Positions 4,692-17,291 of a DNA stretch of 20,508 nt are shown piece after piece. The position numbers and the translations under genes were made by a program. The stretch is from a virus: positions 1 to 20,508 of IMG/VR virus record IMGVR_UViG_3300035179_000437; one strand, 5' to 3'. The stretch's first letter is position 1, and every line of letters begins with the position of its first letter. The notes under the pieces were generated by a model. The model was not told the origin of the DNA, searched no databases, and was given only the letters and a program-made list of their open reading frames with translations.

Positions 4692-6563
4692 TCACCTCGT
4701 CCTTATTGCCTTTGGATGGATGCGGAGGGTTCCCAGGTCGGATGTCTTCTCAACGATTTTGATGACCCTTTTTTCGAATAGTTCCCCTCCCAGATAAACA
4801 TCGAGATTGATCGTCTCGCTTTTTCTCCCGTCGCCGCGACCGCCCAGATAATTGTTGATCGTCTGTTGATTGAGCGGGATGACCGCCTCGGGGCCCCGCT
4901 CGCCGATCATACCCATAGTTGGCCTGATCACGATTCCGCCTTCCTCGAAGGCTCTGATCTTCGCGAAGAGTGCCGTCACCAGGGCAATCGCCCCGCCGAC
5001 CGCCCCAATATTGAATGGGAAGGGCAGTTTCATGACTGATTTTATGAGAGATGATAGGGCCGACATTTTATCTGCTATCCACTGGCGGCCCACCTCCATG
5101 ATCGCATCCATCGCCATCTTCCGCATGGCTCCGCCGATCTCGTTCGCATAGGTAGTCACCACAAGCCCCATGCCCTCGAAAAGGTTTTTATGTCCAAGCC
5201 CTATTTGGACGAATTGATCACCTAAATCTACCTTTAAATTTTCAAAGGCCTGGGCGGTCCGGCTATTGTAATCCACGATATATCCGTAATTTTTCTCAAG
5301 GAGATCTCCCCATTGCTCGTAAGTTGGTGCTATAGATTTTTCGTAATCATCTTGCCATTTTTGAGCCATATCATGCTGAGATTTCTCAATATTTTTATCC
5401 ATCTTTGACAATTTATTGAAATCACTAAGTATATCTTGAATTACTGTATTCTCGGTTTCTCCCATGTCTTCAAAACTAAATCCTATATCTTCTATAATAT
5501 CAACAAAAGTCATGTTTTTTTTGATCGCCGCATCTATTGCATCAGCAAAAGATTTTGTGCTAACTTCTGTAAATTTTAATTCCGGAATTAAATGCTCTAA
5601 AGCTTTGGAGGTTTCTTTTGTGGTCGCTTCCATACGCTTAAATTTTTCATTCAGATACCCGCCTGATTTTAAAGCTAATTCTTGGGCTGCATTTGCTTTT
5701 TTCATCAAATCTACATAATTCGCCATTGTTGGATGTAAAAAAAGAAATGCTTTTTCAAGTTTTTTAAAAAATCCTTCTGATTTATTTGTTTTATCTGTAA
5801 CATCAGCCATCGTTTTTGAAAGAAATTTTATGGTCGTATTAAGTATCTCGCTGCCTAAAATAACTCGTCCTATTGCCTCCTTAAATTCACTAAATGATTT
5901 AGATAATTGGGTTATTGATCCGCCAAATGTATTAACATCGCCTTCGGCTCTTTTATAGAATGATCCAAGTTTATCGAGCAAAGCAGCCCTTTTCTCTTCC
6001 AAGGTTCCCACGTCTGCAATTTTGATTCCATATCGTCCTAAAGCCGCAAAATTGCCTTCCATTGCTTTGGCTACCATCATCGTGGCACTTTGTAAATCTA
6101 TTTTCAGAACGCTTGCCAAACCTGCAGCACCTTTGACGGCCTGATCGATTCCCTTCTGGTCAAGATTCGTCAACTGAAGGAGAAGTGTTTGAGAGGCTTC
6201 AACCTGTTCATCTGTAAACAGCGTTGCTTGTTGCATCTGATTAGCATATTCAAGGAAATGCTTTTTATTTGCATCAACCTCTCTTCCTGTTATAGCAAGA
6301 GTATTTGCCAGCGCTGCTTCAGTTTGTTCCGCTTCAATACCTTGACCGACGCAATCTTTCATGAATCCGGTTAATTTTGAGACTGCTTGGGAAGCAGCAT
6401 GATAGGCAGCAACTCCGGCCACTATAGCTCCAGAAAGAGTGCCGAATGAAGTTCCGGATTTCTTCCCCTCCTCCCCGAGGTTTTTGACATCGCCCTCGAA
6501 TTGCTTGATAGATGCCTGGCCGGTGGCGGTATCGACTATCACTGTGAATTTAATATCAGCCAT
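4692..6563 (-). CDS. Tail tape measure protein
   Basis: 623 residues. It sets tail length and is ejected with the DNA in long-tailed phages. The N-terminus (MADIKFTVIVDTATGQASI) and the Ala/Gly-rich segment at about 45-70 match the start of many tape measures. The body is helical and rich in Lys, Glu and Ala. A hydrophobic segment lies at about 520-538. The Gly-rich C-terminal motif FEEGG (539-543) followed by IGERGPEAVIPL (553-564) is a strong family signature. It lies just after the chaperone genes, overlapping the chaperone extension by 8 bases, with GGAAAG upstream of the ATG. At about 1.5 angstrom per residue the length would give a tail near 90 nm, which is short to medium (inference). 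The middle of the gene is clearly more AT-rich than both ends, which suggests replacement of the central region. Confidence 0.93.
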   Translation of the reverse strand: MADIKFTVIVDTATGQASIKQFEGDVKNLGEEGKKSGTSFGTLSGAIVAGVAAYHAASQAVSKLTGFMKDCVGQGIEAEQTEAALANTLAITGREVDANKKHFLEYANQMQQATLFTDEQVEASQTLLLQLTNLDQKGIDQAVKGAAGLASVLKIDLQSATMMVAKAMEGNFAALGRYGIKIADVGTLEEKRAALLDKLGSFYKRAEGDVNTFGGSITQLSKSFSEFKEAIGRVILGSEILNTTIKFLSKTMADVTDKTNKSEGFFKKLEKAFLFLHPTMANYVDLMKKANAAQELALKSGGYLNEKFKRMEATTKETSKALEHLIPELKFTEVSTKSFADAIDAAIKKNMTFVDIIEDIGFSFEDMGETENTVIQDILSDFNKLSKMDKNIEKSQHDMAQKWQDDYEKSIAPTYEQWGDLLEKNYGYIVDYNSRTAQAFENLKVDLGDQFVQIGLGHKNLFEGMGLVVTTYANEIGGAMRKMAMDAIMEVGRQWIADKMSALSSLIKSVMKLPFPFNIGAVGGAIALVTALFAKIRAFEEGGIVIRPTMGMIGERGPEAVIPLNQQTINNYLGGRGDGRKSETINLDVYLGGELFEKRVIKIVEKTSDLGTLRIHPKAIRTR

Positions 6564-6906
6564 TTTTCTTTCTTTCCATCTCCAATTTTATTTTTTCATT
6601 CTGGATTTTCTGTTCTGTCCTGTGGACTATAGTCATCGCCCTGAGGAAAATTTCCCTATCCACGCCATCAAGCTTCAGGTCCTCAAACAGTCCCGGCATA
6701 AGGCCGCAATCTAAAGTAAACTGGCTGATATTGCCATAATACCAATTAAGGGCCGCAACCTCGAATCTTGAGAGTCCTCTGAGGCTTTCCTCCAGGATGC
6801 AGTTCGCACAGTTTTTCTTCTGCTCCTCCGGCTCGCCCACCTCGTGGCTATGCTCCTCGGTCAGCATGTTCCAAAGTTCGAGCCGCAGCCCGAGGTAGGC
6901 CTCTAA
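6556..6906 (-). CDS. Tail assembly chaperone, frameshifted extension (gpT-like)
   Basis: This is the -1 frame that continues the chaperone gene ending at 6903. From the slippery A AAA AAT it reads LEAYLGLRLELWNM with no stop, then runs to the stop at 6556. That gives about 116 extra residues and a fusion of about 236. An internal ATG at 6867 could look like an independent start, but it has no good ribosome binding site (only GGA three bases away). The extension carries a CxxC (NCANC) and a charged helical C-terminus. In lambda-like siphophages the gpG/gpGT pair is made exactly this way, just before the tape measure, and keeps the tape measure soluble while the tube assembles. The stop overlaps the tape measure start. 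Role rests on position and frameshift architecture, not on recognised sequence. Confidence 0.8.
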   Translation of the reverse strand, partial: LEAYLGLRLELWNMLTEEHSHEVGEPEEQKKNCANCILEESLRGLSRFEVAALNWYYGNISQFTLDCGLMPGLFEDLKLDGVDREIFLRAMTIVHRTEQKIQNEKIKLEMERKKNG

Positions 6907-9017: not shown

Positions 9018-9602
9018 TTATTCTCCTTCCGCTATCATTTCCTTGATGATCTCCTGCGGATTGAGTGCCTGCTTTAAATCGACCGAACATTCGTCCATAG
9101 TCCTTGATAGCCAGTACCTCGCCGGTATATTCACTTCAGGTTTGAGTAAGAATAGTGGTTTGAATCCCTGGCCAGCGATATTCTGAATCATTATTTTGTT
9201 GCCCGCCTTTGACGTTATAACGGCTGTGTTAGGATAATCCCTGGCACGGAGATGGATGCCGGGAAAAGGAATTGTCAGATATTTCTTTTTGGCTTTTATT
9301 ATCCCCCCTTCCTCGTGGATCCTGGCATAAACCACTTCTTTCGTTGGGGGGATCCCGGTACCGATGACGGTTTGGATGGAGCCGCCCATATCCGTCGTCC
9401 TCTGGCTGATATTCCGCCGCAACTCGCCGCTTTTCCGGCCGCTTCGATATTGCCCCAAAATGGTGCCGCTCACATTCCTGATCGCCGCCTTGACGACCGC
9501 CGCACCGTAGCCGGTCATTCGCCTGACAAGTGGCCTATTCATGGTCTTGAGTGCATTAAGTTTCCTTTGGCCTTCTGGAGTTATCTCGATGCCGAATTTC
9601 AT
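9018..9602 (-). CDS. HK97 gp10-like head-tail joining protein
   Basis: 194 residues. The start overlaps the stop of the connector gene by four bases (ATGA), with GGAG nine bases upstream. A distinctive segment, VVYARIHEEGGIIKAKKK followed by YLTIPFPG, matches the region conserved in HK97 gp10-type and virion morphogenesis proteins. The N-terminus is basic with RPLVRRMTGYG followed by an amphipathic helix. The protein is expected at the neck, between connector and tail terminator. It is somewhat longer than typical members (about 120-150), with an added C-terminal helix. The family is fairly secure, while the exact contact is inferred. Confidence 0.8.
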   Translation of the reverse strand: MKFGIEITPEGQRKLNALKTMNRPLVRRMTGYGAAVVKAAIRNVSGTILGQYRSGRKSGELRRNISQRTTDMGGSIQTVIGTGIPPTKEVVYARIHEEGGIIKAKKKYLTIPFPGIHLRARDYPNTAVITSKAGNKIMIQNIAGQGFKPLFLLKPEVNIPARYWLSRTMDECSVDLKQALNPQEIIKEMIAEGE

Positions 9603-10180
9603 ATTTTTATTCTCCGGTAGTTGTCAAGGATCGCCATCTCCTCCTTATCAAAAAGCACGGCCTCAATTACATTCACGGAGCCGTCCGGAAACGACCTCGA
9701 GGTTTCGCCCCATCCCTGCGTCCTGGCCTCTTTCCATGCCCGGGCAATCTTGTGATAGCACATGAGCTGCAAGTCCTTCGGCATAGTCGGCTCCTCGTCA
9801 TCATCCGCCTCGACTGTGTATCCAGCCGTATAATTTACGATAATATTGTTCGATCCCTTCATCCAGGTCCCGTTTAGCTTCTCGAGTATGCCACTTGCAG
9901 CATGGAGGCTAAAATCTTCATCCTCCGTGAGCTCCACGCCATTCTCCTCGATGGATGTCAAATCCGTCACCGGCCAGGCTGGTAGGCAAAGGAAAGTCAG
10001 GCCATTGCCACTGATTGGGGCATCCTCATATTCGGCTTCGACTAGGCTTCGACCCAGTTCTTTTTGAATGACCTCGGATATCGCGGAGATGAGTTGTCCC
10101 AAGAGGTCATCAAATTCCTCGGCATTATCTGGCAATCTGAGATAGATTTTCAAGTTATCCAAGGTGATGATGTCGCTCAT
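9599..10180 (-). CDS. Head-tail connector protein, gp6-like
   Basis: 193 residues. MSDIITLDNLKIYLRLP is the classic start of HK97 gp6-type connectors (PF05135 or its relatives). Helices DDLLGQLISAISEVIQKEL follow, then a beta section with PAWPVTDLTSI and a typical IIVNYTAGYT strand, and a C-terminal helical bundle with KIARAWKEARTQGWG. Members form a ring below the portal. The start overlaps the upstream small gene stop (ATGA) with AAGAGAAAG as a weak binding site, so coupled translation is likely. The C-terminal part, including SFPDGSVNVIE and DNYRRIKI, also fits the family. Confidence 0.88.
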   Translation of the reverse strand: MSDIITLDNLKIYLRLPDNAEEFDDLLGQLISAISEVIQKELGRSLVEAEYEDAPISGNGLTFLCLPAWPVTDLTSIEENGVELTEDEDFSLHAASGILEKLNGTWMKGSNNIIVNYTAGYTVEADDDEEPTMPKDLQLMCYHKIARAWKEARTQGWGETSRSFPDGSVNVIEAVLFDKEEMAILDNYRRIKI

Positions 10181-10371
10181 TTCTTTCTCTTCGCCTTCTT
10201 TTCTGGGGGACCTTCGAGAATTTTATCCTGCTCCGCTACTCCTACGGCCAGCCAGCTCAGGGCCGTGGACTCGTCGATATCCTCTCCGACCCTCAGGACT
10301 ACTCCTATAGGGAAACTCCTCTTCGAGTTCGCCAGATTTCGCAGGATGCGGATTTTTTTAATTCCGCCCAT
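10177..10371 (-). CDS. Small conserved phage protein between capsid and connector genes
   Basis: 64 residues. The centre, GVVLRVGEDIDESTALSWLAVGVAE, resembles short proteins often placed just after capsid genes. They share a V-G-x-x-I-x-x-x-x-A-x-x-W-L pattern. The C-terminus is strongly basic (EKKAKRKK). The role is unknown. The ribosome binding site AGAGGAGA lies seven bases from the ATG, but the whole site is inside a perfect ten-base-pair hairpin (see 10379-10422). The stop overlaps the connector start. Repressing or opening the hairpin would therefore affect this gene and, through coupling, the connector and gp10-like genes. Confidence 0.75.
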   Translation of the reverse strand: MGGIKKIRILRNLANSKRSFPIGVVLRVGEDIDESTALSWLAVGVAEQDKILEGPPEKKAKRKK

Positions 10372-10378
10372 TCTAAAA

Positions 10379-10422
10379 TCTCCTCTATGGAGAAATATAG
10401 AGGAGAGCCGCAGCCCTCCTCC
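10379..10422 (-). promoter_or_regulatory. Two mutually exclusive hairpins, one sequestering a ribosome binding site
   Basis: On the minus-strand RNA, positions 10406-10397 (UCUCCUCUAU) pair perfectly with 10388-10379 (AUAGAGGAGA), giving ten base pairs around an eight-base loop. The second arm contains the ribosome binding site of the gene starting at 10371. Upstream, 10422-10413 (GGAGGAGGGC) can instead pair with 10408-10399 (GCUCUCCUCU), nearly perfectly, around a UGCG loop. The two structures share 10399-10406, so both cannot form together. That is the architecture of an attenuator or translational switch. Only UUUU follows the second stem, so it is a poor intrinsic terminator. Regulation is inferred. 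Confidence 0.55.
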
Positions 10423-10445: not shown

Positions 10446-11291
10446 TCATGGAGCGATCATCAGATAAATGAAACAGGAACCATAATTGGATTTCGTGCAG
10501 GGAATGACATAGCCCGCAATTTGCGAAGCCAAAGGAACAACAGTACCAGATGATTTGGTTGTCCGGATTCCGCCTTCGACCGAGAACACAACGGTCCGAT
10601 CATTCGGCCCATTATTGCCTGGCCATTCTGTTGCTCCGCCAGTATAGTGGCCGTGGCCCGGACCCCAGGTCTGGACCCAACCGAATCCACCGGCGGCGTG
10701 GAATGCGTGAGCGTAACCAACAAACATTTCAGAGCCTGATTCAGAATGCCCTGATTTGCAGACTAGGGAATAGGGTGATGGGTAGCAATCGACCGTAGCT
10801 ACGGGTACGCAGGTCAGCGGATAATCGAGTGTGAGCGTGATAGAGACGGTGTTTCCGACTGTAGAGGCGATGATCTTTCTGAACTGATCGTGATTTAATG
10901 CGCTCTGCGCAATAGCCGGATTCCGATAGATCAGGCAGTATCCGCCCTGATAATAATTTATTGGGCGATTTGAAGCACTGTGAGTATCAAGAACAACAAG
11001 GGTTTTGTCTCCTATTGCGGGGCTGCCTCCAACGGCAACTTCCGCCCCATCATCGGGAATGATATTCCCATTGACGAGAGCATAGGTCAACTCATCGACA
11101 TCCGTGTGGAATCTGGCATAGCGGTATGCCTGGTCTCCGATGACCAATCGGGTACCGATCTCGAAATTCTGTACTGTTGAAACTTCGTGAGGGTCCTGCC
11201 ACTTTCCGCCCCCCAGCATTTTCCCATCCGAAATGAGATGATCGAGTTTGCTTCCAGTTGAGAACCTTTTAGGAATATAGTGTGTTTTCAT
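10446..11291 (-). CDS. Probable virion structural protein, decoration-like
   Basis: 281 residues, starting ten bases after the capsid stop with a strong GAGGAGG site. The layout fits a family of virion proteins that often follows HK97-fold capsids in environmental phages. It has an N-terminal VQNFEIGTRLVIGDQAYRYA motif, then a beta core with NYYQGGYCLIY and ITLTLDYPL, and a C-terminal region with AGGFGWVQTWGPG and SQIAGYVI. I recall this pattern but cannot name a defined domain. Expression just after the capsid gene and strong translation signals suggest a high-copy protein on the capsid. Five Cys residues are visible. Alternatives are a head fibre or an unusual capsid-lining protein. Confidence 0.65.
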   Translation of the reverse strand: MKTHYIPKRFSTGSKLDHLISDGKMLGGGKWQDPHEVSTVQNFEIGTRLVIGDQAYRYARFHTDVDELTYALVNGNIIPDDGAEVAVGGSPAIGDKTLVVLDTHSASNRPINYYQGGYCLIYRNPAIAQSALNHDQFRKIIASTVGNTVSITLTLDYPLTCVPVATVDCYPSPYSLVCKSGHSESGSEMFVGYAHAFHAAGGFGWVQTWGPGHGHYTGGATEWPGNNGPNDRTVVFSVEGGIRTTKSSGTVVPLASQIAGYVIPCTKSNYGSCFIYLMIAP

Positions 11292-11301
11292 TTCATCCTC
11301 C

Positions 11302-12471
11302 TCATGTATGCTCTTTCAAAATCCGGAGAGCATCCGGACGAATAACCCCACCGCCGACTCTGAATGACGCCAGGAGACCGACCAGTCCTGCGGTAGCATA
11401 AATTTCGACTAACCGCTGAATAGTCATGCCTGACCGGTCAAGAATCCTGTAGCCGGCCTTAAGGTCGCCAAATATGGCGATATCGCCTCCGGTAGATGCG
11501 CCGAGGGCAGGAATGTCCTCCTGGTTCTCGAGTGGATATCCAGCGAAAGATGCCGGCTTTCCGGCCTGTACCGATGGTTGCCACAAATATTGGTCGTCAT
11601 CATCTTTGAGCTTTCTAAGTGCAAGTTCTGTCGTGGATGGAACCAGATAAATCCCATTTTTTCGATATTGTGATGGAACTGCATAAGCTAGATCGAGCAT
11701 ATCATCGCAAGCGATCACATCAGGTGCGGCGCTTGTGACTCTTGTTACAACCGAACCATTCAGGATTCCCTCTGGCTGTTGGTTTGTGTGGCCTGTGCCA
11801 TTGATAAAAGCCGTCTCCTCGGTCTCTGCTCTTGCTCTGCTGAATGAATCAACTATACCTGGTTCGATTGCCACGTCCGTATCGGCCAACTCGTCCTTGC
11901 CGATCTTGGCAAGGCCTTCAAGATCTTCGACATATTGATGATCTTCAGATGGCACAACGGTTGTCTCAATCGGCTCCCCTCCCAGTTCGAGTTTCCCCCA
12001 TCCCATCTGCACTTCTGTCAGACTCCGGCGTCTGATTCTATCTCTGCCGATTGCTCTAACTGTGGCGTATTGTCGGATGACGTTAATTTTAGGCAGTGAC
12101 CTGTAGATCTCCGCCTCTAGTTCCTCGGGGATGAGGATCTGGCCGGCCGCATCCGAGACGAGGGCTTTTTTCTGTAGTCCCTTGAGATAGTTGGCTGCTG
12201 CCTCGTCAAGTTTCATTTCTCCGGTTCGCAGGAAATTGAACCATGCCGCCTTGTATTCTTTCGCGCCTGGGACTTCCTGCTTTAAATCCTGGCCATCGAA
12301 AAGTTGCGGCCTCTTTACGATCGTCTCGAGCTGGTCTATCCGGGCATTGAGTTTTGTTTCCTTTTCCTTCCATTCCGCCTCCGTGATATGCTTTTTGCTT
12401 TTGAATTCCTCATAACCCTGCCGAAGTTCGCTGACGATCTGGTTCAGTTCTTGAATTTTTTGTTCTGGCAT
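11302..12471 (-). CDS. Major capsid protein, HK97 fold with N-terminal scaffold segment
   Basis: Builds the icosahedral shell. Two ATG codons compete. The first at 12477 is one base from GAGGAG, while the second at 12471 is seven bases away, so I start there (389 residues). Residues 1-55 are a charged coiled coil (delta-like scaffold). Near residue 103 the sequence becomes ALVSDAAGQILIPEEL, a typical start of mature HK97-fold capsids, so the protease may cut close to this point (inference). The core has the familiar FINGTGHTNQQPEGIL motif and a C-terminal ATAGLVGLLASFRVGGGVIRPDALRIL. Its neighbours are the protease upstream and a decoration-like gene downstream. No separate scaffold gene is seen or needed. 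Confidence 0.95.
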   Translation of the reverse strand: MPEQKIQELNQIVSELRQGYEEFKSKKHITEAEWKEKETKLNARIDQLETIVKRPQLFDGQDLKQEVPGAKEYKAAWFNFLRTGEMKLDEAAANYLKGLQKKALVSDAAGQILIPEELEAEIYRSLPKINVIRQYATVRAIGRDRIRRRSLTEVQMGWGKLELGGEPIETTVVPSEDHQYVEDLEGLAKIGKDELADTDVAIEPGIVDSFSRARAETEETAFINGTGHTNQQPEGILNGSVVTRVTSAAPDVIACDDMLDLAYAVPSQYRKNGIYLVPSTTELALRKLKDDDDQYLWQPSVQAGKPASFAGYPLENQEDIPALGASTGGDIAIFGDLKAGYRILDRSGMTIQRLVEIYATAGLVGLLASFRVGGGVIRPDALRILKEHT

Positions 12472-12473
12472 TT

Positions 12474-13730
12474 TCATACTCCTCTTAAATTTTGATTAAG
12501 CTTTTTAAGCTCATCAATGTTGATTTCGGATAAGTGGTCTTCCGGCTTGTCCGTTTTATCCTGCGGCTTCCCGCCTTTCTGAGTGTCCTCATCGGACGGC
12601 TCAGCAGTTTCGAGAAGTGCATTAAGAATCTTGACGGCTTCTTCCGCCAGATTCTTTTGTTCATCGGTTAAATATATGCAACAGGAACCTTTCCAAGAAA
12701 TGATCTTTGAAAGGATTTCTTCCATGCCTTTTTCTCCGGGCCATGCGCCTAAACATTCATGGTGTAACCAAGCGCAAAAACTTTCTTTGTCTCCTGGATC
12801 AAAATCCCCGAAATTTTTATCCATACATCTTGTAAAAAAACCAGGATCATTCCCGATTGAAGCACATAGACCTTCAAGAAGTCTTGCTGGGATTTGTTTG
12901 AGGTCTATCTCTTCCATTCCGTCCTTTTCCATAAGTTTAATAACTTCTGGAAAGGCAGATTTGAGTTGATTTTTTTTAATAATCATGGATGTTCTCCTTT
13001 TTCCACGAGCTGGCTCAAATTGGCCGCCGTGATCTTTACAGTGATTCTTGGCTTCTTCCTCAGACCAAGTCTCCTTGGGATATCTATATGAAATATCTTC
13101 AGAGGTATCGCCTTTATAACCAATAAGAACAGAATATTCTTTGCCTTTATGTTTCCGTGTCATGCGAGCGATTCGATCATATCCACTAGAATCATGAAAT
13201 TGGCAGGCATGTTCATTAGGATAAGGTTTCAATTCCATTTTGATTTCCGGCTTTTTTTTCAGTGGGCAATCTGCGCACTTAATCTCGGTTATAAGAGCTT
13301 TCGGATCCATTCCAAATGTCACGATTCCTATTTCCCATACCCTGAGCTCCTTCAGTGCCCGAATATTGTCATCCATCTCCCATTTGACCGCATCGTATCC
13401 AATCGAGAGTTGTCTGGCGACTCGCTTTGTCTTTTTCATCAGGGCATGAAGCTCCTTGGCACGCTGGACATCAAGTACAAGTTGGCCTTTGATTCTCAGG
13501 CCGATTTTATCTTCCTCGCCAGTTGCTTCCCCGACCGGTTCCTTCAAGTCATGATACCAATGGAGCGGGATGTTCGGGTTCTCCTGGAGTGTCTTTACGA
13601 AAGCCCCGGGATCTATTCTGTCGCCCCCAAGATCAGAATCTTTTCCTTTCCTAAAGATAGCGGCATAGCCTTCGAATGTTCCATCTTCCTCAAGTTTTTT
13701 TAATTCGAAATCAAAAACTTTGTATTCCAT
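12474..13730 (-). CDS. Prohead protease with extra C-terminal Cys/His-rich domains
   Basis: Cleaves the capsid scaffold segment during head maturation. ATG at 13730 is preferred because GAGG lies nine bases upstream and MEYKVFDFELKKL is the usual family start. A TTG at 13745 in frame is the alternative. With this start (418 residues), H60 (LHWYHD) and S109 (RQLSIGYD) are the likely catalytic pair of the HK97 gp4-type serine protease domain (residues 1 to about 155). Unusually, more modules follow. CxxC (CADC) precedes a domain at about 170-248 with PNEHACQF and NHCKDHGGQFEP. A second region at about 280-345 has FFTRCMDKNFGDFD and FCAWLHHECLGAWPGE. The tail is charged and disordered. Usual family length is about 200-250 residues. 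Confidence 0.88.
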   Translation of the reverse strand: MEYKVFDFELKKLEEDGTFEGYAAIFRKGKDSDLGGDRIDPGAFVKTLQENPNIPLHWYHDLKEPVGEATGEEDKIGLRIKGQLVLDVQRAKELHALMKKTKRVARQLSIGYDAVKWEMDDNIRALKELRVWEIGIVTFGMDPKALITEIKCADCPLKKKPEIKMELKPYPNEHACQFHDSSGYDRIARMTRKHKGKEYSVLIGYKGDTSEDISYRYPKETWSEEEAKNHCKDHGGQFEPARGKRRTSMIIKKNQLKSAFPEVIKLMEKDGMEEIDLKQIPARLLEGLCASIGNDPGFFTRCMDKNFGDFDPGDKESFCAWLHHECLGAWPGEKGMEEILSKIISWKGSCCIYLTDEQKNLAEEAVKILNALLETAEPSDEDTQKGGKPQDKTDKPEDHLSEINIDELKKLNQNLRGV

Positions 13731-14572: not shown

Positions 14573-14845
14573 CTATGGATTTACCGCGTCATCATATTTG
14601 ATAACCAGTTTCCCATTATTATCCACATAGATATTAGTAACTTTATGACAGTTTACTGGTGGCACGCTAAATGGTTCGGCACTTTCGCCTTTATCACCCT
14701 TAGGGCCTTGATCTCCGGCATCTCCTTTTGGACCGGGCGGCCCTTGAGCGCCTTGTCCGATGTTCGCCAAATCTACCTCAACTTGAGATAGACGTTCTTC
14801 GATCTCGCCATCGGGCAATATTGTTGGCCTTGTTCCGTCGCTCAT
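14573..14845 (-). CDS. Collagen-like short surface protein
   Basis: 90 residues. Residues 32-55 are eight Gly-X-Y triplets (GAQGPPGPKGDAGDQGPK and on to GES). This is a collagen-type triple helix that would need trimers. An N-terminal helix (EIEERLSQVEVDLANI) could start trimer formation. The C-terminal 23 residues hold KVTNIYVDNNGKLVIKYDD, a motif shared with the next gene and familiar from phage fibre-type proteins. No membrane segment or signal peptide is seen. The ribosome binding site is weak (AAGAAAT). Probable role: a short capsid or tail spike. In known phages collagen-like repeats occur in fibres and appendages. The family of the termini is not identified. Confidence 0.78.
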   Translation of the reverse strand: MSDGTRPTILPDGEIEERLSQVEVDLANIGQGAQGPPGPKGDAGDQGPKGDKGESAEPFSVPPVNCHKVTNIYVDNNGKLVIKYDDAVNP

Positions 14846-14853
14846 ATTATTTC

Positions 14854-15243
14854 TTAATAGCTCACTATGGCATTACAATTTTCTATATAATTGGAGTTAT
14901 CGTTATTTATGATCCGGGACAGACGTATATGAGAAATCCCATAAAAATTAACTGGCAAAGTTTTACTTACGGCCTCGGCTACCGCATCCTCGTTTGTCCT
15001 AACCCGGATTCTTAAATAATAAGCGCTTGACCAGATATTTGTGAGACCATAACTTACTTGGAATTCAAAATCAATCGTAGAAAGTGATCCCGATTCTCGA
15101 TTAAATATGACAGTGATAGCGCCCACTTTCTTTCTGATTGAAATTTCGCGTGATACAAAATTCACAAAGTTATTTTTTATTTCGGAAGGGTCAATAGAAA
15201 TGCCTTCTTTCAAGAATTCAGATATATAAGATATTAGCGCCAT
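14854..15243 (-). CDS. Unknown protein after the portal gene
   Basis: 129 residues if started at the second of two adjacent ATGs (15243), seven bases after AGGGG. The first ATG (15246) is only four bases away. A longer frame from 15288 would lie inside the portal gene and lacks support. The stop of the portal gene overlaps this start. The sequence starts with helices (ALISYISEFLKEGISI) and turns to beta strands (AITVIFNRESG, SAYYLRIRVRTNEDAVAEAV). I do not recognise it. Base composition is lower in G+C than the portal gene before it (22 of 60 in 14881-14940), so it may have been gained separately. Possibly a capsid accessory, by position only. Confidence 0.6.
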   Translation of the reverse strand: MALISYISEFLKEGISIDPSEIKNNFVNFVSREISIRKKVGAITVIFNRESGSLSTIDFEFQVSYGLTNIWSSAYYLRIRVRTNEDAVAEAVSKTLPVNFYGISHIRLSRIINNDNSNYIENCNAIVSY

Positions 15244-17291
15244 CATTCTTCCCCTATTTCGGGATAGGTCCCGCATAAGCAGTTGCATATGTTTCCGGCG
15301 GACCCTTTCGGATCCCCCGGATATTGGAGCTCCTCTCCGCCCACGATGAATGCCTCCTCAAGGAGTATCGGGTTATCCGAGTACCTCCGGTCCGCATCCA
15401 TGTGTTCCTGGCGCGAATCCTTGACAAACGAGCAGAGCCAGCCCTTGCGCTCGACGAACGGCATCTGCTTATAACCCTCGAGGTTGCCATAGTTCTCGAC
15501 TTTTCCAGTCTCCGTTCTTGCGATCCGCTCCGCCCTCGAGATTGAGAGATCCTTGAACTTCTCCCAGAGTTCATGGCTGAGATCTTCGACTGTCCAGTCC
15601 TCGGCCTCCGCCTTCTCGATCATTTCGAGCATCTTCTTGACGGTCTCTTCGTTTATATACTTTGCCGAGTTCATGACTAGGCGCTCGAGCTCTTCCTTAA
15701 GCTCTTGCGTGAACTCGAATCGACCGGCCTCCTTCATATCCTGAGCGATATCATAGAGTTTGCCTTCCGACACATCCATCCCGGCGTCGCCAGCTTTCTT
15801 GAAGAACCAAAGATAGTGTGGCATAAACGTCTTGATATATTCCTTCATCTCCTTGTCCTGGGAGAAAAGTTCAGTCTTGTTGATATATACTAGGCCGGTG
15901 GCCTGCTCTATTTTCTCCCTGATCTCCCTAGCCTGTTTTCTAAGGAAGGACTCGACCCTCGACTTGAATGACTTCTCTTTGGCGGTTATCCTTGAAACAA
16001 AGTTTTTCCAAAGGAGATCCTTTCGCTCAGGTACTTTCCAATAGCCTTTTGTCAAAAGTGCCTTTTTTATTTCGATTTTCTTTTTACTTTTGCCTTGTAG
16101 GCTAGGCAAGGTCACAGGGGTCAATCCCATCGGGATATAGATGACATTGCCCGCCTCTCCAATTTCCGAATATCCACAAGCAGCTAATTTCTGATTTAAA
16201 CTTAGCCACCAGGCTTGTGCCATCCTATTATAGGCTTCATTGCGTTTTTGCTGTAAGGCGTCTATTTGGTCAAGATTAAGATCGAGTAATAAATTGTCCC
16301 CAAATTTCGGCGTGAGCCAATTATTCAACTCATCCCGCACCCAGTATGCCAAGGGGATGATCGTTTCCATGTAGAGGGCGAGGCGAGCTTCCTGATAATT
16401 CGAATAGGTTTTATTTTCCGAATCCCCTATAAGTTCAGGTGCAATTCCATAAACACGGCAGATCTTGCGCGTGGTCATTTTATCCGCATTTAGCCAGTCC
16501 ATGTCATGCGGCGATATTGAGTTCTGTTTCCAGTCGATATCCCCGCCCGCAAGAATTAACGGCTCCCCAGCCTTTTCTGATCCGGAATATTTCTCTTTTA
16601 TGCGTTTTGCCACGATATTAAACTCGTCTTCTTCCAGTTTCCCCTTGATAATGAATGCTCCTGGGGGACGGCAGTCGTTTTTCAAAAGGTTCGCATTCCA
16701 CTCCTGAGCGAGAATCGAGATATCGATTCCCCTCATGGCAACTTCCATCGGACTCAATCCATAGAAGTCATTAGTGGGATGAAAGAACTTTAAGTGGAGG
16801 ATTTCGTCGAAGTTAAAATCCGTCTTTTCTCCTCCAACCGTATATCTGTAACCTTGGATGAACTGCTTCGAGTTACCAGCAAGTACCTGCATTCGATCTG
16901 GCCGGAGTGCATAAAGTTCTTTTGGCGGGCCACTATTTGGCCCGACTGATTCGATATAACTATTTCCTGCAATGAGTAAGAACCTGATTGCCCTATCGAT
17001 GAACTTCTTGCCGCCGTCCTGCGGATTCGGTCGCCTCATAAGGTCCAAAAGCTTGTGGATTTCAACCTCCTTGCGACTTCCATCTTCCTGCTTCTGATAA
17101 AGAAGCCATGGAATCTGTGCTGTTGTCTCCGCAATTAGTTTTATGCAGGCGTAAGCATCCATACATGATTGATATCCGGCCCTGGCAAATCCCGCATAAT
17201 CTTTTTTGGTCCAGATGACCTTTTCGGCCATCGTCATCAAGATTGCGCCCCAGGTCCGGCTCTGCTTCTTAAGAAAATTAAATATGCTCAT
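15243..17291 (-). CDS. Portal protein fused to MuF-type head morphogenesis domain
   Basis: 682 residues. Residues about 35-400 are an HK97-type portal (PF04860 class): CIKLIAETTAQIPWLLYQ, RRPNPQDGGKKFIDRAIRFL, GNSYIESV and LHLKFFHPTNDFYGLSPMEV. The portal forms the twelve-part ring through which DNA enters and leaves. Residues about 440-682 are a helical linker then a MuF-like domain (PF04233 class): RAERIARTE (586-594), GNLEGY, H630, YPGDP (657-661) and GSAGNICNCLC (663-673). MuF is usually a separate gene after the portal. Here there is no stop between them. The fusion would fix one MuF domain to each portal subunit. The start overlaps the terminase stop (ATGA) with only a weak AAGAG site, so translation is coupled. 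Confidence 0.92.
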   Translation of the reverse strand: MSIFNFLKKQSRTWGAILMTMAEKVIWTKKDYAGFARAGYQSCMDAYACIKLIAETTAQIPWLLYQKQEDGSRKEVEIHKLLDLMRRPNPQDGGKKFIDRAIRFLLIAGNSYIESVGPNSGPPKELYALRPDRMQVLAGNSKQFIQGYRYTVGGEKTDFNFDEILHLKFFHPTNDFYGLSPMEVAMRGIDISILAQEWNANLLKNDCRPPGAFIIKGKLEEDEFNIVAKRIKEKYSGSEKAGEPLILAGGDIDWKQNSISPHDMDWLNADKMTTRKICRVYGIAPELIGDSENKTYSNYQEARLALYMETIIPLAYWVRDELNNWLTPKFGDNLLLDLNLDQIDALQQKRNEAYNRMAQAWWLSLNQKLAACGYSEIGEAGNVIYIPMGLTPVTLPSLQGKSKKKIEIKKALLTKGYWKVPERKDLLWKNFVSRITAKEKSFKSRVESFLRKQAREIREKIEQATGLVYINKTELFSQDKEMKEYIKTFMPHYLWFFKKAGDAGMDVSEGKLYDIAQDMKEAGRFEFTQELKEELERLVMNSAKYINEETVKKMLEMIEKAEAEDWTVEDLSHELWEKFKDLSISRAERIARTETGKVENYGNLEGYKQMPFVERKGWLCSFVKDSRQEHMDADRRYSDNPILLEEAFIVGGEELQYPGDPKGSAGNICNCLCGTYPEIGEE

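Follow-up and report, generated by a model that had tools for sequence, protein, structure and literature searches.

A conserved RNA hairpin at the boundary between capsid and connector genes in the late operon of an HK97-type siphovirus and its relatives

A tailed phage needs its capsid subunit in hundreds of copies and each connector protein in about a dozen, and all of them come from one late operon. In the HK97-type siphovirus described here, an RNA hairpin (H1) lies between the capsid and the connector genes, and H1-like hairpins with compensatory base changes mark this boundary across the relatives, which bears out the placement given in an earlier sequence-only reading of the same DNA. 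The fold, the conservation with its compensatory changes and the position relative to the capsid block were computed. With moderate confidence we regard H1 as a leaky terminator or an mRNA-stability boundary which separates the high-copy capsid genes from the low-copy connector and tail genes. A hairpin that is retained precisely where the capsid block ends, even within coding sequence, is a concrete site at which the capsid:connector ratio may be set.

The window, i.e. the whole stretch of DNA that was analysed, is an IMG/VR virus record of 20,508 bases carrying an HK97-type siphovirus late operon on the minus strand. The gene order on this strand is terminase, portal, protease, major capsid protein (MCP), a 281-aa gene, a gap of 74 nt, a 64-aa gene, a gp6-like adaptor and more neck and tail genes. 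The portal gene (15243-17291, minus strand) carries a head-morphogenesis domain fused at its C-terminal end (phrog_12 over residues 1-406, phrog_2468 over residues 430-677), and a small gene between the portal and protease genes (14573-14845, minus strand) encodes collagen-like repeats (GPPGPKGDAGDQGPKGDKG). The gap and its flanking genes contain the following features:

11302-12477, minus strand: HK97-type major capsid protein (phrog_10, 6.6e-51; PF05065, 1.7e-51)
10446-11291, minus strand: 281-aa gene after the MCP gene, which closes the capsid block (presumably high-copy); modelled as all-beta and not assigned to a named family
10399-10422, minus strand: hairpin H1, GGAGGAGGGC-UGCG-GCUCUCCUCU, conserved in relatives; stem of ten pairs including two G-U pairs, UGCG loop
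10397-10406, minus strand: 5' arm of hairpin H2, UCUCCUCUAU, overlapping the 3' arm of H1 by 8 nt; not conserved in relatives
10391-10398, minus strand: tail following H1, moderately rich in U (AUAUUUCU); as a terminator U-tract it is imperfect (from the sequence)
10389-10393, minus strand: 5' arm UCUCC of the small local hairpin H2', compatible with H1 (from the minimum-energy fold)
10379-10388, minus strand: 3' arm of H2, AUAGAGGAGA, which contains the Shine-Dalgarno sequence and pairs with 10406-10397
10379-10384, minus strand: Shine-Dalgarno sequence AGGAGA, 7 nt upstream of the start codon (from the sequence)
10379-10383, minus strand: 3' arm GGAGA of H2', predicted by folding to sequester the Shine-Dalgarno sequence while H1 is formed
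10177-10371, minus strand: 64-aa gene downstream of the hairpin; its class-2 homologue (see below) carries the hairpin within the coding sequence
9599-10180, minus strand: gp6-like head-tail adaptor (connector; phrog_442, 3.4e-28; PF05135)

Neither the 64-aa nor the 281-aa protein had matches in Pfam or PHROGs. For the 281-aa protein no match was obtained in the phage collection either, and its profile retrieved from the solved structures only antibody and baseplate matches, which were judged spurious. Its structure model (pLDDT 79.8) is all-beta, with unnamed viral proteins as the best match; since nothing in the PDB matched this model below E = 0.001, the role of the protein stays presumptive, and its high copy number is presumed from the place of its gene. 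A search of the phage collection with 1.9 kb of DNA around the gap gave no match, so that this collection holds no near relative. Two scans of genome collections, one of them empty and the other with one distant MAG locus, did not reveal a host.

The two strong hairpins of the gap, sharing eight bases (10399-10406), had already been recognized in the sequence-only reading and are confirmed here, as are the ten pairs and the UGCG loop of the upstream one. The downstream hairpin (H2) likewise has its ten perfect pairs, all of Watson-Crick type, closes a loop of 8 nt and covers the Shine-Dalgarno sequence of the gene starting at 10371. H1 and H2 are mutually exclusive as both use 10406-10399. Among the perfect hairpins on both strands of the 20.5 kb window H1 ranks second in stability; a hairpin as stable was reached in 2 of 20 whole-strand shuffles and in 2 of 200 shuffles of the gap only. 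First in stability is the perfect hairpin at 4977-5010 (minus strand, -19.1 kcal/mol), which is situated within a 623-aa gene (4692-6563). A short gap at 6868-6902 (minus strand) contains a small hairpin, CGGGC-UGCG-GCUCG, with the same UGCG loop and flanking pairs as H1.

Relatives were gathered by means of the capsid protein, the 281-aa protein and the adaptor; the counts given here are distinct sequences and not events, and the relatives are not independent samples. Three loci (L093, L098, L102) with a large gene after the MCP gene, and with either no recognizable start of the small gene or a different layout, were set aside. An H1-like strong hairpin is present in the gap of all 22 distinct relatives with the same gene order. 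Compared with shuffles of their own gaps, all tested relatives but L028 (6/200) lay at or beyond 2/200; the hairpin of L103 was found but left out of this comparison. As alignment of the whole gaps with MAFFT misaligned the stems, covariation was counted on stems anchored at the loop. Since the selection of these stems had been confined to the best perfect hairpins with a loop of 4 nt, their pairing is 100 % by construction and only changes of pair type are informative. In the alignable subset of 14 sequences, compensated changes occur in eight of nine pairs, both sides are changed in 31 cells (8.6 expected), and the covariation score was reached by none of 500 shuffles. Arms swapped between sequences pair to 68 %, own arms to 100 %. 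The sequence of the H1 stem has thus turned over among the relatives while its pairing persists. Of the two stems for which the sequence-only reading had suggested such a comparison, the upstream one holds up and the downstream one does not.

The position of the hairpin is tied to where the capsid block ends. For every gene end, the best perfect hairpin in the following 110 nt was determined, and values of -14 or lower were taken as strong. A strong hairpin follows the ~270-aa gene, the counterpart of the 281-aa gene, in 86 % (22 cases) and the MCP gene in 53 % (30 cases) where MCP is the last capsid gene, but follows MCP in 9 % (22 cases) when the ~270-aa gene comes next, and other gene ends in 2 % (n = 302). 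In 45 further distinct and more distant relatives of the ~270-aa gene the proportion was 56 %, versus 4 % of 260 other ends. All these percentages, for capsid-block ends and controls alike, are lower bounds because the perfect-stem search under-scores hairpins with bulges or mismatches; the full terminators of phages GBK2 and Silence were missed by it and are visible by folding. In L115 (2200-2300) the adaptor is 68 % identical and the upstream protein is a different one, and a hairpin still precedes the small gene. Tracking of block ends and persistence in L115 show that the element belongs to the capsid/connector boundary and not to one gene.

A second arrangement, class 2, is found in relatives in which no more than about 15 nt separate the small gene from the stop codon of the capsid gene. 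Here the hairpin lies inside the coding sequence of the small gene, around codons 12-20 (first ~60 nt), where the protein motif S-R-A-F-A-P-G-S is encoded. The members with a strong codon-embedded hairpin and compensating changes are:

L032, L039, L049, L061, L065, L070, L074, L081, L085, L088

Compared with synonymous recodings based on the codon usage of the phage itself, about two-thirds of the distinct class-2 sequences tested have a far stronger hairpin or a far stronger local fold around it (z mostly -3.4 to -7.6). The compensating changes include AAC/GGT for AGC/GGC and CAG/CTG for CGG/CCG. The pair statistics are weaker in class 2 because four pairs never vary, and in the subgroup L053-L064 the in-gene hairpin is absent. 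This codon-embedded form is the part of the boundary hairpin that may be new.

For the hairpin after the capsid block as such, the sequence-only reading had been aware of no earlier description from this position; in general this is wrong, since the boundary hairpin is an element of an already known kind, like T-phi of T7. The only terminator of the T7 phage polymerase, T-phi, is located immediately after capsid gene 10, and expression of genes 11 and 12 depends on read-through alone (PMC5592923). LUZ100 has a strong terminator directly after its capsid gene (PMC10134795), a terminator is annotated after the capsid gene of Bacillus phage Silence, and in cluster O mycobacteriophages the major tail gene is followed by a stem that resembles a terminator (PMC4351075). 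T-phi and the LUZ100 terminator share with H1 the place of a control point directly after the capsid genes. However, the RNA polymerase on which T-phi acts is that of the phage itself, whereas no phage polymerase was seen in the window, which is a partial record, and in comparison with both the tail of H1 is only moderately U-rich and its termination is a prediction.

With respect to the features of intrinsic terminators, H1 has the stable GC-rich stem, which is conserved, as well as the T-phi-type location, behind the last capsid gene and ahead of the connector genes. Its tail has an interrupted run with 5 T in 8 positions (ATATTTCT). At least 5 T in 8 follow 13 of 48 hairpins, versus a background of 4 %, and 21 of the 48 are followed by at most 3 T; together with the imperfect U-tract this indicates that many of the hairpins are not canonical intrinsic terminators. 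Among the named phages examined, all eight whose gap measures 45 nt or more have a hairpin, and the four whose gap is 17 nt or shorter have none. GBK2 (Geobacillus), Silence (Bacillus), Vibrio K253 and PhiPS02 have, like the window, a GC-rich stem at the same place of related capsid operons; unlike the window and most of its closest relatives they have clearer T-runs, i.e. a T-rich tail as in typical terminators. The hairpins of SfI, Eudoria and D14E have no T-rich tail. Judging by stem and tail, partial termination at H1 is plausible in the window.

What we infer from fold, conservation and position is termination, protection of a 3' end and a ratio of doses. H1 would fold as it emerges from a polymerase transcribing the late operon, and H1 and the moderately U-rich tail would stop part of the polymerases (leaky termination). 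On stopped or trimmed transcripts H1 would shield the 3' end of the capsid mRNA. The outcome would be an excess of capsid-block mRNA over connector mRNA, to which H2' may add a fixed, mild damping of the translation of the 64-aa gene.

A more general view, which we hold only tentatively, is that a conserved hairpin independent of any U-tract marks the capsid/connector boundary across a large HK97-type group, moves with the last capsid gene, becomes embedded in coding sequence where a spacer is missing, and may set the ratio via mRNA stability or interference with ribosome or polymerase. The main rival of the leaky terminator is a pure mRNA-decay barrier or processing hairpin without termination, at which 3' exonucleases would halt so that the capsid segment would outlive the connector segment. 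It is a possible explanation to which we assign a rather low probability. The hairpin is far better conserved than any U-tract. A barrier also accounts better than a terminator for the in-gene class-2 hairpins, whose translation would be odd for a terminator, and for the U-poor hairpins in SfI, Eudoria and D14E. A precedent is the intercistronic hairpin of the Rhodobacter puf operon, given as the classic case of mRNA stability (Klug et al. 1987, as cited in PMC6238624); like H1 it lies between cistrons needed in unequal amounts, and it acts through mRNA stability. It belongs, however, to a bacterial operon in which stability was measured, whereas H1 is known here from its sequence. Against a pure barrier, T is still enriched after the stem in the 13 of 48 hairpins mentioned above, and plain terminators occupy the same spot in several relatives. 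Termination and decay barrier would have the same result, namely less connector than capsid mRNA.

Improbable in our judgement is a plain ribosome-site hairpin, H2' or its equivalents, which would constitutively lower the translation of the small gene while H1 merely insulates it. Weak local hairpins at the Shine-Dalgarno sequence do recur, in the window as well as in L006, L067, L057 and L007/L075/L083, with a combined p of about 0.001 against shuffled linkers if related sequences are counted separately, and the distance from the end of the H1-like hairpin to the next start codon is 24.9 ± 2.8 nt. Individually, however, only 3 of 20 reach p < 0.05, the pairing comprises mostly 4-5 bp, and in class 2 the hairpin is located inside the gene instead of before it. 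The small gene of L025 (5555-5566) apparently begins with ATA; in L027 and L031 this codon is ATG, preceded by the same AAGGAGAAGACT sequence.

The alternative-hairpin switch proposed in the sequence-only reading, in which H1 and H2 would alternately expose and bury the ribosome site of the 64-aa gene, is not supported, and we consider it quite improbable. It was suggested by the overlap of the arms by 8 nt and by the strength of H2, whose pairing exceeds all of 300 linker shuffles; weaker, partial versions of H2 exist in L004 and L062 (-9.7 and -6.1). Folding of the minus-strand RNA from 10450 to 10360 predicts one populated state instead of two. The free energies are -17.1 kcal/mol for H1 alone (-16.3 to -17.1), -14.3 kcal/mol for H2 alone and -23.4 kcal/mol for H1 with H2', and the minimum-energy fold is H1 with H2' (10393-10389 paired with 10383-10379), a small hairpin that had been overlooked before. 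In the ensemble P(H1) is 0.9996 and P(H2) 0.0002, the states being about 5.5 kcal/mol apart; taken together, the 91 nt of this region exceed shuffles in stability only modestly (z -1.69). Nor is H1 predicted to free the ribosome site, as had been assumed, because H2' keeps it covered: the GGAG is about 99 % paired (~1-2 % unpaired) in the H1 state and 0 % unpaired in the H2 state. The site is, however, sequestered less strongly in the H1 state (-6.3) than it would be in the H2 state (-14.3), so that a graded effect is conceivable, provided that something blocks the 5' arm of H1. When folding was followed on the growing transcript, H1 formed before the 3' arm of H2 was made. A ribosome leaving the 281-aa gene stops ~24 nt short of H1 and therefore would not open it. 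Rfam contained no family matching the element, and no ligand domain was recognized.

Conservation points in the same direction. Pairing of the exclusive H2 type is strong (-13.5) in the window; L004 and L062 have it in part, and in the remaining 17 of 20 it does not rise above chance. Among the relatives the 5' arm of H1 is purine-rich (on average 80 % purine); its 3' arm is therefore pyrimidine-rich and will pair to some extent with any Shine-Dalgarno sequence, so that part of the length of H2 is expected. Between 4 and 8 such pairs are found in most relatives. H2 is accordingly taken to be an incidental alternative pairing rather than a switch. Riboswitches and attenuators also have two overlapping helices near a ribosome site, but for the gap a single populated state is predicted, the site is covered in either state, and conservation of the second helix is lacking. 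An overlap of two hairpins should thus not be equated with a switch when one of them has a purine-rich arm adjoining a Shine-Dalgarno sequence.

A leader-peptide attenuator, in which a ribosome stalled at three Arg codons of a mini-ORF would block H1 and let H2 form, is very improbable: an ORF of 15 codons (10432-10385, minus strand, MNIRRRAAALLYISP) does span H1 and ends just before the Shine-Dalgarno sequence, but it has no good Shine-Dalgarno sequence of its own, most relatives lack such an ORF and no equivalent peptide is conserved.
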